A DNA stretch of 55,349 bases from Okeania hirsuta (GTDB lineage: Bacteria; Cyanobacteriota; Cyanobacteriia; Cyanobacteriales; Microcoleaceae), in NCBI RefSeq assembly GCF_003838195.1, contig NZ_RCBY01000023.1, positions 1 through 55,349 of the forward strand, in the 5' to 3' direction. The notes under the pieces were generated by a model. The model made no database searches. It saw only the letters and a program-made list of their open reading frames with translations, and had not been told where the DNA came from. Made by a program: the position numbers and the translations under genes. Of this stretch, positions 13,988-29,381 are shown in pieces; within the stretch, counting starts at the first letter, position 1, and each line of letters begins with the position of its first letter.

Positions 13988-16201
<2,214 letters not shown>

Positions 16202-20913: not shown

Positions 20914-21891
20914 TTAATCAATATCAAAAGGTTTAATCTCAACTTTTGGTTTTCCCCCGTTATGATTGAAAAAGCAAAGATTTTGAAACGGAATCATTGA
21001 CCAATTTCCGATTTCTTCTGTCAATGGTTCAGATGAAATAATTACAGAACTAATATCTTCATTTCCATTACTAGAAGGTTCCATCTGATATCCTTCATAA
21101 TTACCAAATTTTTTCCCTTTCAATGACCAAACTGGACCTTTTAACCGAGACAAAGAAAATTCTTTTGTTCCTCTAGGATATTCTTTTAAATCTTCCCAGT
21201 TTCCTTCCACATTTAGTTCTCGATTATAGCCAATTCCAACATTAGCTACAAGTACATCATTACTATCTGCTAAAAATAGTTTGAGAGTACTTAGTCCCGT
21301 ACAATTATGTTGAGTTTGAACATCAAGAATAACTTTAATTGTTTTCTTAATAGCTTCAATCATCTCATCAACTTTTCAATCTTTAGTTGGTTCATCTAAC
21401 TGAGACATTAGCAGTGCATAAACAACCTCAGAATCTGTGCTACCTTCTACATATTTGACAATCTCTGGTTTACACCTATTTAATAAATCTAGACGAATTT
21501 CCTTGAATCCATTTACCCCACCATTATGAGCCATAGCTAACCGAAATCCTGGAAAAATAAAAGGATGGCAATTATTTTCATTAACAACAGCTTCATAATT
21601 AAGGCTATCATAGCCACTAGCACGAATATGACACAGAAGGACATTTGTTTCGTGACGCTCACATAGGGAGCCTAAATTGCGGTCATAAAATGGAGGTTTG
21701 ATACCCTTATAAATAAAAGGATAATCTTCACTAAGAGTCCCTTTACTCCAGGTAGCTAAACCAAAGCCAGCTAATTGAATCATATCATGATCTTCTGGAT
21801 CGAAGCTTTGATTCACTATAGAATTATCAGGTCTCAGAAGCAATTGATAAATTTGTAGTGGTTCACCAATATATGCTAAAACTCTACACAG
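20914..21891 (-). pseudogene. Class II glutamine amidotransferase (YafJ-like) with in-frame TGA and CTG start
   Basis: This is an Ntn-type glutamine amidotransferase. The N-terminus reads CRVLAYIGEPLQIYQLL, with the nucleophile Cys at 21886-21888 expected to be exposed by removal of the initiator. The codon before it is CTG (21889-21891), preceded by AGGA about 7 nt upstream; no ATG, GTG or TTG lies in frame between it and the upstream TAA at 21910. LLCHIRASG, AMAHNGGVNGF and STDSEVVYALLMSQL follow, as in the family. At 21376-21378 a single TGA interrupts the frame after PTKD; the same frame then stays open for about 150 more residues to the normal C-terminus. Together they make a full-length protein of about 325 residues. 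Either the gene is recently inactivated, or the two halves are made separately, or there is a sequence error. A methyltransferase gene lies about 100 bases upstream on the same strand. Confidence 0.8.
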
Positions 21892-24515: not shown

Positions 24516-25058
24516 CTAAAGTCCTTTATAACACCGATACCAATCCTGATAGCTACGAATTGCTAGCCACAACAATAGTAAGGCAATTAATCCTCCTTGT
24601 TGTGGTGCGTCAAAGGCAAAAATTACCAGGCAAATACACAGAACATCTTGCACTAACAGCATCCAGAGAGGCAAACCACGCCATCGATAAAACCATCCGA
24701 CCTGAACAAGTTGCAGCACTAAGGCAAGTAAACCACCAACTACTCCCATCACGATCGTTAACCAGTCTTCTAAATGAGTGGCCTTGGCGATCGCCATACT
24801 CATAATTGCTCCTACTATTGGACTGAATAAAAGTTGAATTAAATTTAGAATGCGTTGGCCTAACAGCCGTTTTGAGGCAAATATTTCAAATAAAGACCAA
24901 CTAACTAAAACTCCCACTACTATTTGTGGGGAAATATTGGACAGCAGAGGTACTTTCGACCATAAATCATTTTGCCATAAACCGATTAACAGTAACGGTA
25001 AGGCTATTCTGATACCTGCTGCTGCTGATGCAGACAAAGCTGCTAGGACTTCTACCAT
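24516..25058 (-). CDS. DUF4126 family membrane protein
   Basis: Integral membrane protein of about 180 residues with five or six hydrophobic segments. The N-terminus (VEVLAALSASAAAGIRIALPLLLIGL) is the signature of the DUF4126 family, and ASKRLLGQRILNLIQLLFSPIVGAI and GVVGGLLALVLQLVQ continue it. The family has no established function. The ATG at 25058 is chosen; a GTG four codons upstream is possible, and neither has a clear ribosome binding site. The gene points toward hemH (convergent) and is separated from it by repeats. Confidence 0.85.
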   Translation of the reverse strand: MVEVLAALSASAAAGIRIALPLLLIGLWQNDLWSKVPLLSNISPQIVVGVLVSWSLFEIFASKRLLGQRILNLIQLLFSPIVGAIMSMAIAKATHLEDWLTIVMGVVGGLLALVLQLVQVGWFYRWRGLPLWMLLVQDVLCICLVIFAFDAPQQGGLIALLLLWLAIRSYQDWYRCYKGL

Positions 25059-25313
25059 AAACGACAACACAGAGTATTACTACTATTACTATCTATTTTA
25101 GTATTTAGTTGCTGATGTCCGGGAGGAATCTCTAGACTCAGGTATTTCACCCCTTTAAAGTAATATTTAAGGATAATTTTTCTGATATTTTTGACTGATA
25201 GATAATAGACATCTCCTCCGAAAGAGGGAGTAGGGAGTAGGGAGTAGGGGGAAAGAATCCATAGTCTCTGTGGGATAATTGATTTGATTTTTTATTCTTG
25301 GAGATGTCTAATA

Positions 25314-25604
25314 TAGGGCTTGCTGATTAAATATCAAAGCATTGACTGATATTGGTTTTAGGCTTTTTATGTCTTGAAAAAGTATGAGCTTTTCAGTTGC
25401 TCAGGTTCATGCTTATGAGCATTTTCGGGAAGCAAAAGCCGAAAAATCACTCTTAATATTATTTTGGCCACTTACTCTGTAATTCCCATTTCTTCTACGT
25501 CCTAACTACTCCCTACTCCCTTTTTCCCCTCCTGGGAGGGGGAGGGGCGAGGGGTGGGTCTCTACTCCCTACCTCAGCAAAAAGACTTTACTCCGCAAAC
25601 CCTA
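25314..25604. mobile_element. MITE family TAGGGYTTGC, copy A
   Basis: Left end TAGGGCTTGCTGATTAAA, right end GCAAACCCTA. About 291 bp with no gene. Other copies lie at 27287-27532, 31561-31815 and 41113-41352. The interior contains GAGCTTTTC-type inverted parts and, at 25526-25559, the G-rich hairpin cassette. Confidence 0.75.
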
Positions 25605-25675
25605 ATTATAGATATCCGCGCAGGATTTTGGAAAAAAAACTGAAGTAACAGAAATTGATGAACTGATCGCTTATA

Positions 25676-26100: not shown

Positions 26101-27222
26101 ATGAACAGTACAACAATTTTAAATGAAAGTTTTATTAAAGTCAGAGGCAAAGGTTTCCACTATATCTGGTTGCGTGATAATTGCTTGAATCCTCAGTCTC
26201 GTAATCCAGATACTTTTCGGAGAATTTATGATTATACTGAGAATCCACAACCAAAGCCATTATATGTGGAATTAAATGAAGAAGAATTGATTATTGATTG
26301 GGATGAAAAGCCTTCTCATCGCAGTATATATCCTATTTCCTGGCTGATGAAATATGCCTACGACCCAGATCCAAAGCAAATCTGCAACGAACCAAAACTT
26401 GTATTATGGGATCGATTTTGGTTCGATAAGCATCCTATAGAGCGACACGACATTCATTCATGTCCACAATCACTGTGGATGGACGAACTTTGTGCCTTGG
26501 GATTTACGTTACTCAGTAATATGAGTATTGAGGAAATGGAATCTTTTCTCACAAAATCTATTGGACCAATCAATGCTACATTTGAGATAGTGAGTGATGT
26601 TAAACCTACTCCAGATGCTAAAGATTTGGGCGATTTAATGACAGGTCCAGAGGTATTGCCTCACAATGCTCATAACTATAAATTGAGCAAGTTCTTGATG
26701 CCGTTTTTCTATTGCGTCGAACATAATGCTAAAGGTGGCGAATCAATACTGGTTGATAGTTTTCGGGTTTGTGAAGACTTTCGTCAAAAATATCCTGAAT
26801 ACTTCAAAATTTTGAGCGACACTCCGATTGTTTTTCATAAATTTGACCCCCAGAATAATTATTACTTTTCTGATACTGCTCCGATTATTCAATTAGATAC
26901 ACAAGGTAATATATATCGCATCTGCTTTAACGAAAAAAACTGCGAACGAACTATCCCATTTGAGAAGACAGAAAGTTTTTATGAAGCTTACTCAATCTTC
27001 TATCACTATATGAAAAATCCAGCATATCAGTACCGCTTCCGTCTCAATAATGGGGACTGTTTGCTAATACATAATGTGAGGGTAATGCATGGACGGACAA
27101 CATTCGATCCTAGATCGGGAATTAGACATCTGAAAGCAGGATTTGTGGATTGGGACTACTTTACAGCGCGACGTAACTTCTATCAAAGCAAGCATTTTTA
27201 CTTACAGCAGTTTTCTAGTTGA
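26101..27222 (+). CDS. Gamma-butyrobetaine hydroxylase-like TauD/TfdA enzyme with HxA iron motif
   Basis: Predicted non-haem Fe(II)/2-oxoglutarate enzyme of 373 residues. Residues ~10-100 match the small N-terminal domain of gamma-butyrobetaine hydroxylases (FHYIWLRDNCLNPQSRNPDTF), but most of its zinc-binding Cys residues are missing. The C-terminal domain includes the GGES segment and, near the end, VMHGRTTFD with the distal iron ligand His330 and a conserved GIRHLKAG with Arg342. Where the family has H-x-D (for example HTDLPY), the sequence reads LPHNAHNY: His188-Asn189-Ala190. The carboxylate ligand is therefore replaced by Ala, the change that defines Fe/2-oxoglutarate halogenases such as SyrB2. 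A normal hydroxylase activity is doubtful; halogenation or loss of activity are the alternatives. AGGAG at 26090-26094 supports the start. No neighbouring biosynthetic genes reveal the substrate. Confidence 0.85.
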   Translation: MNSTTILNESFIKVRGKGFHYIWLRDNCLNPQSRNPDTFRRIYDYTENPQPKPLYVELNEEELIIDWDEKPSHRSIYPISWLMKYAYDPDPKQICNEPKLVLWDRFWFDKHPIERHDIHSCPQSLWMDELCALGFTLLSNMSIEEMESFLTKSIGPINATFEIVSDVKPTPDAKDLGDLMTGPEVLPHNAHNYKLSKFLMPFFYCVEHNAKGGESILVDSFRVCEDFRQKYPEYFKILSDTPIVFHKFDPQNNYYFSDTAPIIQLDTQGNIYRICFNEKNCERTIPFEKTESFYEAYSIFYHYMKNPAYQYRFRLNNGDCLLIHNVRVMHGRTTFDPRSGIRHLKAGFVDWDYFTARRNFYQSKHFYLQQFSS

Positions 27223-27286
27223 TGAGGTACAAAGTTTTATTGCTCTAGGGAACAGGGAATAGGAAATATAAGAATAGTCCTATAAG

Positions 27287-27532
<246 letters not shown>

Positions 27533-27637
27533 AGTGTACCTCACTATCCTCAAAAGTGCTGTAAGTTAATAGAAATCTTCAGAAAAGAGGGAGTAGGGAG
27601 TAGGGGGAAATAATTGATAATTGCTGTGCCATAATTG

Positions 27638-27785: not shown

Positions 27786-28006
27786 TTGGCGTTGGTGAAA
27801 AGAGGTATGATATCTGTCCGGATAAGAGCGCTATAGAACGACCTTCCGCTTACCTGACCAAAAAACTTTCTCCTTATACTCGGGATTTCTTCTTCTTTCT
27901 TCCCTCCTGACTCAGTCCGACTGAATTCCCCTCCTGGGAGGGGCAGGGGTGGGTTGACTCCTAAGTAATTAAGATTAATATCATACACGCGCTTCAGCAA
28001 CGCCGT
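27786..28006. mobile_element. MITE family GGCGTTGCTGA, copy 3
   Basis: TTGGCGTTGGTGAA at the left and TTCAGCAACGCCGTTA at the right. The interior contains a TGTCCGGATAAGAGCGC end of another family and the G-rich cassette at 27928-27955, so it is a nest of at least three repeat types. It lies about 90 bases upstream of the glutamate dehydrogenase start. Confidence 0.65.
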
Positions 28007-28094: not shown

Positions 28095-29381
28095 ATGTCA
28101 GATTCTTTATTTGCTGATGCTAGTCTCAGGTTAGAAAAAGCATTAAAATATGTCTCTCTTTCTGAAGATACAAAAGAGCGTCTCAAACATCCAAAAGCTA
28201 GTTTAATAGTTTCAATTCCTGTCCGAATGGATGATGGTTCATTACGAGTTTTTCAAGGTTATCGAGTTCGTTATGATGATACTAGAGGACCGACAAAAGG
28301 TGGTATTCGTTATCATCCAAATGTTTCTATTGATGAGGTAAAATCTTTAGCTTTTTGGATGACTTTTAAATGTGCAGTTGTGAGTTTACCTTTTGGTGGA
28401 GCGAAGGGTGGAATTACTGTTAACCCGAAAGAGTTATCTCGGATGGAATTAGAACGTTTGAGTCGTGGATATATTGATGCGATCGCTGATTTTATCGGTC
28501 CAGATGTGGATATTCCGGCACCTGATATGTACACTAACCCAATGATTATGGGTTGGATGATGGATGAGTATAGTATTATTCGCAGACAATTAATTCCGGC
28601 AGTTATTACAGGTAAACCTGTTACTATTGGTGGTAGTTTGGGCAGAAATACGGCAACATCAATGGGTGCTTTTTTTACTATTGAAACTATCATGTCCAAG
28701 TTTGGATATATTCCGGAAAAAACTACAGTTGCAGTACAAGGTTTTGGTAATGTAGGAGCATTTTTGGCAGAGTTACTTTGTCAAGCTGGTTATAAGGTAG
28801 TTGCTGTTAGTGATTCTCAGGGTGGTATTTATTATTCAAAGGGTTTAGATATTCCTAGTATTCGACAATATAAGGAGTCTAATAAAGGTATTCAAGCTGT
28901 TTACTGTAAAGGCAGTGTTTGTAATATTGTTGAGCATCAAATTTTGACTAATAAAGAACTTTTAGCTTTAGATGTTGATATATTAATTCCTGCTGCTTTG
29001 GAGAATCAAATTACTGAGGAAAGTGTCAAAGATATTAAAGCAAAATTTATCTTTGAAGCTGCAAATGGTCCGACTACTTCTGCTGCAGATATAATTTTAG
29101 AAGACCGTGGAATTTATGTATTTCCTGATATTTTAGTTAATGCTGGTGGAGTGACTGTAAGTTATTTTGAGTGGGTACAAAATCGCAGTGGTTTGTATTG
29201 GACTTTGGATGAGATTCATCAACGCTTGAAAGAAAAAATGTTGGCAGAAACAGAGCAAATTTGGCAAATATCTCAAGAGTTGTCTGTTTCGATGCGAACT
29301 GCTGCTTATGTGCATGGGTTAAATAGATTGGGAGAGGCAATAAATGCTAAAGGAACTAGGGCATATTATATGAAGGATTAA
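28095..29381 (+). CDS. gdhA: Glu/Leu/Phe/Val dehydrogenase (glutamate dehydrogenase)
   Basis: Oxidative deamination or reductive amination between glutamate and 2-oxoglutarate is the likely reaction. The N-terminal catalytic domain has GYRVRYDDTRGPTKGGIRYH (2-oxoglutarate/glutamate binding) and the active-site LPFGGAKGGI with Lys104, followed by DIPAPDMYT. The C-terminal Rossmann domain starts with VAVQGFGNVGAFLAEL. The 428-residue length and GNVG pattern fit the hexameric bacterial family; coenzyme choice (NAD or NADP) is not certain. The ATG has only a weak AGG upstream. The gene is monocistronic, with MITEs on its 5' side and gene remnants on its 3' side. Confidence 0.92.
   Translation: MSDSLFADASLRLEKALKYVSLSEDTKERLKHPKASLIVSIPVRMDDGSLRVFQGYRVRYDDTRGPTKGGIRYHPNVSIDEVKSLAFWMTFKCAVVSLPFGGAKGGITVNPKELSRMELERLSRGYIDAIADFIGPDVDIPAPDMYTNPMIMGWMMDEYSIIRRQLIPAVITGKPVTIGGSLGRNTATSMGAFFTIETIMSKFGYIPEKTTVAVQGFGNVGAFLAELLCQAGYKVVAVSDSQGGIYYSKGLDIPSIRQYKESNKGIQAVYCKGSVCNIVEHQILTNKELLALDVDILIPAALENQITEESVKDIKAKFIFEAANGPTTSAADIILEDRGIYVFPDILVNAGGVTVSYFEWVQNRSGLYWTLDEIHQRLKEKMLAETEQIWQISQELSVSMRTAAYVHGLNRLGEAINAKGTRAYYMKD

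Follow-up and report, generated by a model that had tools for sequence, protein, structure and literature searches.

Does the loss of a carboxylate iron ligand make a halogenase of a protein from the TauD/GBBH branch, or does it mark a gene in decay? This question is raised by a gene in a 55,349-nucleotide stretch of DNA from the cyanobacterium Okeania hirsuta (contig NZ_RCBY01000023.1; the whole stretch is called the window here, and the gene product the window protein). An earlier note on this DNA had proposed that the gene carries an H-N-A iron motif, as in Fe/2-oxoglutarate (2OG) halogenases.

An HNA motif in a protein of the TauD/GBBH branch

The window protein matches Pfam TauD (PF02668) with 110.6 bits against a cut-off of 27 (E 1.6e-31). 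Its closest solved match is TmpA, a 2-trimethylaminoethylphosphonate hydroxylase (PDB 6npb, E 1.2e-37), followed by human BBOX (2e-25) and the dehydrofosmidomycin oxidase DfmD, a natural-product enzyme (PDB 9j0j, 9.6e-23); TmpA and DfmD belong to the same branch. The Pfam match and the alignments to TmpA and BBOX bear out the proposed TauD/GBBH-branch membership. The GBBH-like_N match remains below the Pfam threshold (15.7 bits, cut-off 22.8), and the protein falls under the curated NCBIfam cut-offs of the TmpA, GBBH and TMLD equivalogs alike: the best model, TmpA (NF049936), gives 197.9 bits, half of its cut-off of 400, while GBBH (TIGR02409) gives 170.8 against 414.75 and TMLD (trimethyllysine dioxygenase) 161.1 against 268.3. 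Up to E 1, no halogenase was found among its 11 distinct PDB sequence matches and no halogenase model among its Pfam and NCBIfam matches.

In the alignments to the solved TmpA and human BBOX, the latter covering nearly the whole length, His202, Thr203, Asp204, Ser229, His347 and Arg360 of BBOX correspond to His188, Asn189, Ala190, Ser215, His330 and Arg342. The accessible text of the BBOX study describes the iron triad, a salt bridge from Arg360 to succinate, an aromatic cage and Asn191 (PMC13257696). The window protein retains both histidines and the equivalent of Arg360, and its alanine replaces Asp204, so that HNA...H stands in place of the HxD...H triad of the branch; TmpA and DfmD both read HTD. 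The proposed motif is indeed there, in an open reading frame and with the distal histidine and a nearby arginine kept: HxA in place of HxD/E, as in Fe/2OG halogenases, is present as H188-N189-A190, and the 2OG-binding arginine follows the distal histidine. An AlphaFold model of the protein, built from two alignment rows, has a pLDDT of 37.8, too low to be of use. Judged from its sequence, the gene would encode a stand-alone Fe(II)/2OG enzyme of the TmpA/GBBH branch without a carboxylate iron ligand. Glu162, which is peculiar to the window clade in a comparison with 35 HxD rows and the paralogue L003 (described below), may be a candidate substitute ligand; L003 has Gly there.

Table 1. Coordinates of the gene, its key residues and its surroundings in the window
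Feature	Position	Strand	Remark
TauD/GBBH-branch Fe(II)/2OG enzyme, motif H-N-A, 373 aa	26101..27222	+	ATG start, open frame
CAC AAT GCT, His188-Asn189-Ala190; Ala at the carboxylate iron-ligand position (BBOX Asp204)	26662..26670	+	
His330-Gly331-Arg332; distal iron ligand His, BBOX His347	27088..27096	+	
Arg342, expected 2OG carboxylate clamp, BBOX Arg360	27124..27126	+	Arg in 35/35 HxD rows
Ser215, BBOX Ser229	26743..26745	+	HxD rows: Ser 33/35, Thr 2/35
Ser220	26758..26760	+	Gly in 33/35 HxD rows; Ser also in L003 and L085 (HTD)
Glu162, BBOX Gly178, adjoining cage residue Tyr177	26584..26586	+	Gly in 35/35 HxD rows
Interspersed repeat copy, upstream of the gene	25309..25608	.	
Interspersed repeat copy, downstream of the gene	27283..27533	.	
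Third interspersed repeat stretch flanking the gene	27788-28004		
DUF4126 gene, conserved left neighbour	24516..25070	-	
Glutamate dehydrogenase-like gene, conserved right neighbour	28095..29381	+	named by eye

Recurrence of the HNA motif

Orthologues with 94-96% identity are encoded in three further Okeania genomes (SIO2B3, SIO1I7 and SIO2C9), and the codons CAC AAT GCT are present in each of the four genomes in which the orthologue was found, the window genome included. In addition, the window genome (8.8 Mb) holds three paralogues with 44-48% identity, which read PHTD (L002), PHNA (L003) and PHND (L004); L003 lies 170 bp behind L002 on the same strand. A lone mutation, which the earlier note had named as one outcome that would undo its proposal, or a sequencing error is thus rejected by the HNA motif in four of four orthologues and by the independent second case in L003, and HxA is kept among the closest homologues.

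The motif is covered by 50 of the 51 rows of the final alignment, which read HTD (37), HND (7), HNA (4), HVD (1) and YTD (1). The column of Ala190 holds Asp in 46 of these 50 rows; Ala is confined to the other four, namely the window gene, SIO2B3, SIO1I7 and L003. Since the column is otherwise Asp, Ala190 does not result from an alignment shift, and alignment with the family, as had been suggested, locates the loss at the carboxylate ligand. The following were never rows: the broken SIO2C9 orthologue (L006, HNA), the fragment L025 and the near-duplicate L050, whose last 150 residues are those of a retained row (both HTD), and L008-L010, L021, L024 and L052, which are second copies of the same genes.

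With the window protein as query, the family was found in 10 of 39 near relatives (E 1e-20), 4 of 386 cyanobacteria drawn across the phylum (E 1e-30), 12 of 61 genomes of the same taxonomic family and 7 of 20 of another (both E 1e-35), 24 of 388 genomes of the order and 4 of 217 of a third taxonomic family (both E 1e-60); these genome sets overlap, and several include the window genome. A plasmid search beyond cyanobacteria gave 38 records, all with ≤32% identity to the window protein, and a short DNA pattern search matched 388 of 388 genomes and was hence non-discriminating.

On trees computed with the motif columns omitted, the window clade is sister to L011, an HTD protein with 51% identity (support 99/96), and L003 falls within an 11-row group with L002, L018, L085, L091, L004 and others (support 100/99). 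The branches starred on the tree require at least two changes for HNA; HND requires three. A single HNA clade was rejected with p-AU values of 0.0037 (30 rows) and 0.0123 (39 rows, 12 of the 51 being omitted), to be read with caution for the long branches L003, L011, L060 and L056. The tree tests reject HNA as one old event, and the separate tree places together with the rejected constraint indicate that Asp was most likely lost twice.

Conservation of the rest of the enzyme

The 4 HNA rows were compared with 26 HxD rows, 11 of 41 rows (fragments and distant paralogues) being omitted. The HxD relatives define 53 near-invariant residue columns, in a set that includes one gap column besides; 49 of the 53 are retained in the window protein and 50 in L003. 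In a leave-one-out control, the HxD rows broke 0 to 6 near-invariant columns, the window protein 4 and L003 3, and the SIO2B3 orthologue lost no further ones. According to this control, the HNA proteins are, Asp190 aside, no more decayed than their HxD relatives, and most other conserved residues, the 2OG arginine included, are retained.

The changes common to the window clade and L003 are few. Gly220Ser is found in both HNA lines, and 4 of 416 row pairs with less than 60% identity share at least two such breaks, two of them being window-clade/L003 pairs; as a halogenase-like mark, Gly220Ser is weakened by Ser220 in the HTD row L085 and by Gly in the broken SIO1I7 copy. Tyr366 of BBOX, described as the partner of Asp204 (PMC13257696), is Phe348 in the window protein, and its loss was rejected as diagnostic because Phe occurs in 5 of 35 HxD rows and L003 retains Tyr. 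Gln215, which hydrogen-bonds Fe=O in BBOX (PMC13257696), is absent in four of four HNA rows; as 16 of 35 HxD rows lack it too, it was set aside as an HNA mark. His191, put forward earlier as a possible iron ligand, is replaced by Gln in the SIO1I7 orthologue and by Phe in L003; lacking conservation, it is unlikely to be a ligand and was rejected.

The zinc ligands of BBOX, C38, C40, C43 and H82, are incompletely represented in the window protein, where C28 and H73 are kept and Asn30 and Ser33 stand at the other two places; the full N-terminal set of the BBOX type is missing, two of four being retained. The earlier note was right that zinc-binding cysteines are mostly lost. As a sign of decay, however, the loss was rejected and is unremarkable, since Cys is also missing in intact HxD relatives (20 of 35 at BBOX C40 and 12 of 35 at C43), HTD proteins among them, and in TmpA, which likewise lacks the N-terminal zinc cysteines and reads LRDNALDPETRS at these positions.

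At the BBOX cage residues Tyr177, Trp181 and Tyr194 and at Asn191, the window protein aligns F161, S165 and D175, in a loop of uncertain alignment. Because the residues appear to differ at the substrate positions of BBOX (Trp181, Asn191, Asn293 and Tyr366), the substrate would probably be another N-methylated or cationic amino acid-like molecule.

The locus, selection and broken orthologues

The gene order ferrochelatase, DUF4126, the HNA gene and glutamate dehydrogenase is the same in all four orthologue genomes. The gap between the DUF4126 and dehydrogenase genes is 2.95 kb in the window, 2.1 kb in G010, 0.67 kb in G001 and 0.37 kb in G016. G001 and G016 represent an empty site at this locus, and in G001, which is of the same genus, the best match to the window protein is 50% identical. 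The flanking repeats are multicopy: a query with the region gave 66-97 matches in each of four same-genus genomes, and the majority of the matches listed fall on the flanking repeat stretches. No biosynthetic cluster or substrate hint was found by Pfam names among ten ORFs examined between positions 14861 and 36957, and no paralogue was found beside the gene. A class II glutamine amidotransferase-like gene at 20914-21843 of the window is apparently split in two ORFs, with a Pfam match in the first piece only.

Between the window gene and its SIO2B3 orthologue, both of which are open, dN/dS is 0.237 (p 3.7e-6, Fisher's test on counted sites), and purifying selection acts between these two intact copies. 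All three computed orthologue pairs give 0.20-0.34, which is about three to five times the value of ferrochelatase (0.05-0.08), exceeds that of glutamate dehydrogenase (0.06-0.14) and is akin to that of a neighbouring methyltransferase (0.15-0.30), so that the gene appears loosely constrained and not free. The SIO1I7 copy is interrupted by a TAG in frame at residue 144; in the SIO2C9 copy the frame stops at residue 62, and an insert of 124 bp (L006 10262-10385) lies at residue 87. These breaks were read from MAGs, in which assembly error is possible. A 16-base piece of the insert is present in 6 of 84 loci examined, all of them stretches of the same genome region. As the gene is broken in two of four strains, its function looks dispensable, probably in part of the genus.

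These observations bear on the possibility of decay, in which Asp was lost with the function and the intact window and SIO2B3 copies are remnants yet unbroken. The two broken orthologues, the dN/dS above that of ferrochelatase, the variation of residue 201 among P, L and V in the orthologues, the stand-alone gene in a repeat-flanked place and the absence of an orthologue at this site in G001 all speak for it. We nevertheless consider decay unlikely, since non-synonymous change between the intact copies runs at about a quarter of the neutral level, dN/dS is like that of the methyltransferase, SIO2B3 has kept its remaining near-invariant columns, Ala190 is common to all four copies, and the same change occurred independently in L003, which has an open frame and likely sits in a cluster. 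From the dN/dS and the shared Ala190, despite the broken copies, we infer that the gene has probably been kept for some time with alanine in place.

Gene neighbourhoods of the relatives

Thirty regions were compared, 25 of them outside the window clade, and 12 of these 25 extend over just about 4 kb. The recurrent BLAST groups near the relatives, which were named by Pfam or NCBIfam from one or two members each, include CmcI-like (7 regions), Sulfotransfer_5-like (6) and HD-domain proteins (5), and a PhyH group reading HQG (4). The relatives adjoin methyltransferase, CmcI, sulfotransferase, HD-domain and PhyH genes, in a setting resembling that of natural-product clusters.

TmpA works with TmpB, an HD-domain oxygenase. 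Small HD-domain proteins are encoded near TmpA-like genes (L034:6564-7139; the BLAST group also occurs in L040, L041, L044 and L059), and the one member tested matches PhnZ/TmpB weakly. Given this partnership and the nearby HD genes, several of the loci give the impression of a pair of the TmpA/TmpB type recruited into biosynthesis. In L044 the gene is adjoined by an ORF of 3116 aa in which an NRPS-like adenylation motif was recognised by eye, and in L041 by an ORF of 2702 aa from that BLAST group. L035 (7873-17993) and L037 contain a cluster with HTD copies, an aspartate decarboxylase-like gene (named by eye), a pterin-binding enzyme and two SDRs, with CmcI in L035. Homologues of DfmD are also described in operons with methyltransferases (PMC9296572).

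The neighbourhood of L003 comprises a partial methyltransferase, CmcI, the HTD copy L002, L003 itself and a sulfotransferase, beyond which an amine oxidase and an exporter follow on the other strand (the exporter and the methyltransferase were named by eye or BLAST group), and L002 and L003 likely sit in a biosynthetic cluster. The tandem of an HTD and an HNA copy in the window genome also favours a non-catalytic role, in which an iron-poor paralogue would pair with an HTD paralogue (L002 with L003, and the window protein with another of the copies). TlxI, which pairs with TlxJ, offers a precedent (PMC12141560), and BBOX is a homodimer (PMC13257696). This role is quite unlikely, since TlxI is marked by the loss of the 2OG-binding arginine and by a short loop (PMC12141560), whereas the window protein retains Arg342, both histidines and Ser215, and no paralogue adjoins its gene.

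PhyH proteins near other family members include SyrB2-like ones. SyrB2/CytC3-like proteins are encoded at L034:10752-11849 (window genome, near the HND paralogue L004) and in L095-L099; at the halide-site column, where SyrB2 and CytC3 read WHQA, two of five loci have HQN and three HQT, neither of which ends in Asp, Ala or Gly, and the window genome has one of each. An ectoine/leucine-hydroxylase-like PhyH family (L040:16656-17579, L100-L113) reads HQG in 7 of 14 loci, HSG in 1, HQL in 2, HQD in 1 and HAD in 3; two of the seven HQG loci are alike and come from one genome. HQG genes adjoin the TauD copies L030, L047, L053 and L085, and the HQG-type proteins are candidate halogenases or other carboxylate-free enzymes. 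If the HNA proteins are halogenases, the HQN, HQT, HQG and HQL motifs of these neighbouring enzymes would make carboxylate loss a repeated route in these pathways.

Discussion

In SyrB2 and CytC3 the carboxylate ligand is replaced by Ala, as in the window protein, and in SyrB2, BesD and DAH an anion occupies the place of Asp. SyrB2 and CytC3 are of the PhyH-type family, which lies outside the PDB matches that the window protein gives up to E 1. If the window protein acted in this manner, His188 and His330 would hold the iron, to which 2OG would be chelated; a halide ligand, be it chloride, bromide or a pseudohalide, would fill the site freed by Ala190, and O2 would yield a halo-ferryl that abstracts hydrogen from a small free substrate, followed by halogen rebound.

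The plant dechloroacutumine halogenase DAH, an HxG enzyme, adjoins HxG and HxD paralogues (PMC12346261). Its setting, with an HxG copy near an HxD copy and broken sister copies, resembles L002/L003 and the broken orthologues, with the differences that DAH belongs to the plant flavonol-synthase branch and that its activity is demonstrated (PMC12346261). Converting other enzymes has failed: FLS D230G had no activity (PMC12346261), and P4H D414A and D414G were not halogenases (PMC2767507).

A further explanation is a carboxylate-free hydroxylase, desaturase or decarboxylase with water at the third site. Human AspH hydroxylates with two His (HxG) and without a carboxylate ligand, its variants with one His retain activity (PMC10947486), and the closest solved relatives of the window protein are oxygenases, none of them a halogenase. 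AspH, which shares the missing carboxylate ligand with the window protein, lies outside the PDB matches of the latter up to E 1. We regard such a role as very unlikely because AspH is described as very unusual for a hydroxylase of known structure, FIH accepted Gly and not Ala in place of Asp (both PMC10947486), and the hydroxylase activity of P4H D414A was not rescued (PMC2767507). Since AspH hydroxylates with two His, HxA alone is no proof of halogenation: by these comparisons, P4H and FLS show that it does not suffice for halogenation, and AspH that it is compatible with hydroxylation.

The best reading, which we put forward tentatively, is an Fe/2OG enzyme without a carboxylate ligand that is retained under selection. 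That the window protein is a radical Fe/2OG halogenase of the TauD/GBBH branch is the likeliest of the readings, if short of probable: two independent losses of Asp, the retention of the cofactor residues, the signs of selection and the precedent of DAH argue for it, and the broken copies, the lack of a cluster at the gene, the failed P4H and FLS conversions and AspH argue against it. Somewhat doubtful is the wider proposal of a halogenase (or pseudohalogenase) line in the GBBH/TauD branch that would have arisen through an Asp-to-Ala change on two or more occasions within one cyanobacterial gene family, once in a stand-alone gene and once in the tandem partner of a hydroxylase sister. Within the titles and abstract openings of the papers listed, most subscription literature being outside this scope, no halogenase of the TauD/GBBH branch was found described. 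A 2026 halogenase-mining preprint has 22 Fe/2OG entries, and the word TauD is absent from its main text as accessible (PMC12871659).

If active, the window protein would represent a new family among the free-substrate Fe/2OG halogenases, with substrate classes so far unused by them (betaine-like, small cationic), and the second Asp-to-Ala case in the same genome hints at a new kind of halogen-adding enzyme. L002 and L003 provide, within one genome, a naturally occurring pair of HTD and HNA sisters, and L011 is the nearest HTD relative of the window protein; together they may tell what besides Asp must change to make a halogenase, given that the D-to-A/G mutants of P4H and FLS failed. If inactive, the gene would be a clean case of the HxA motif alone misleading genome mining.
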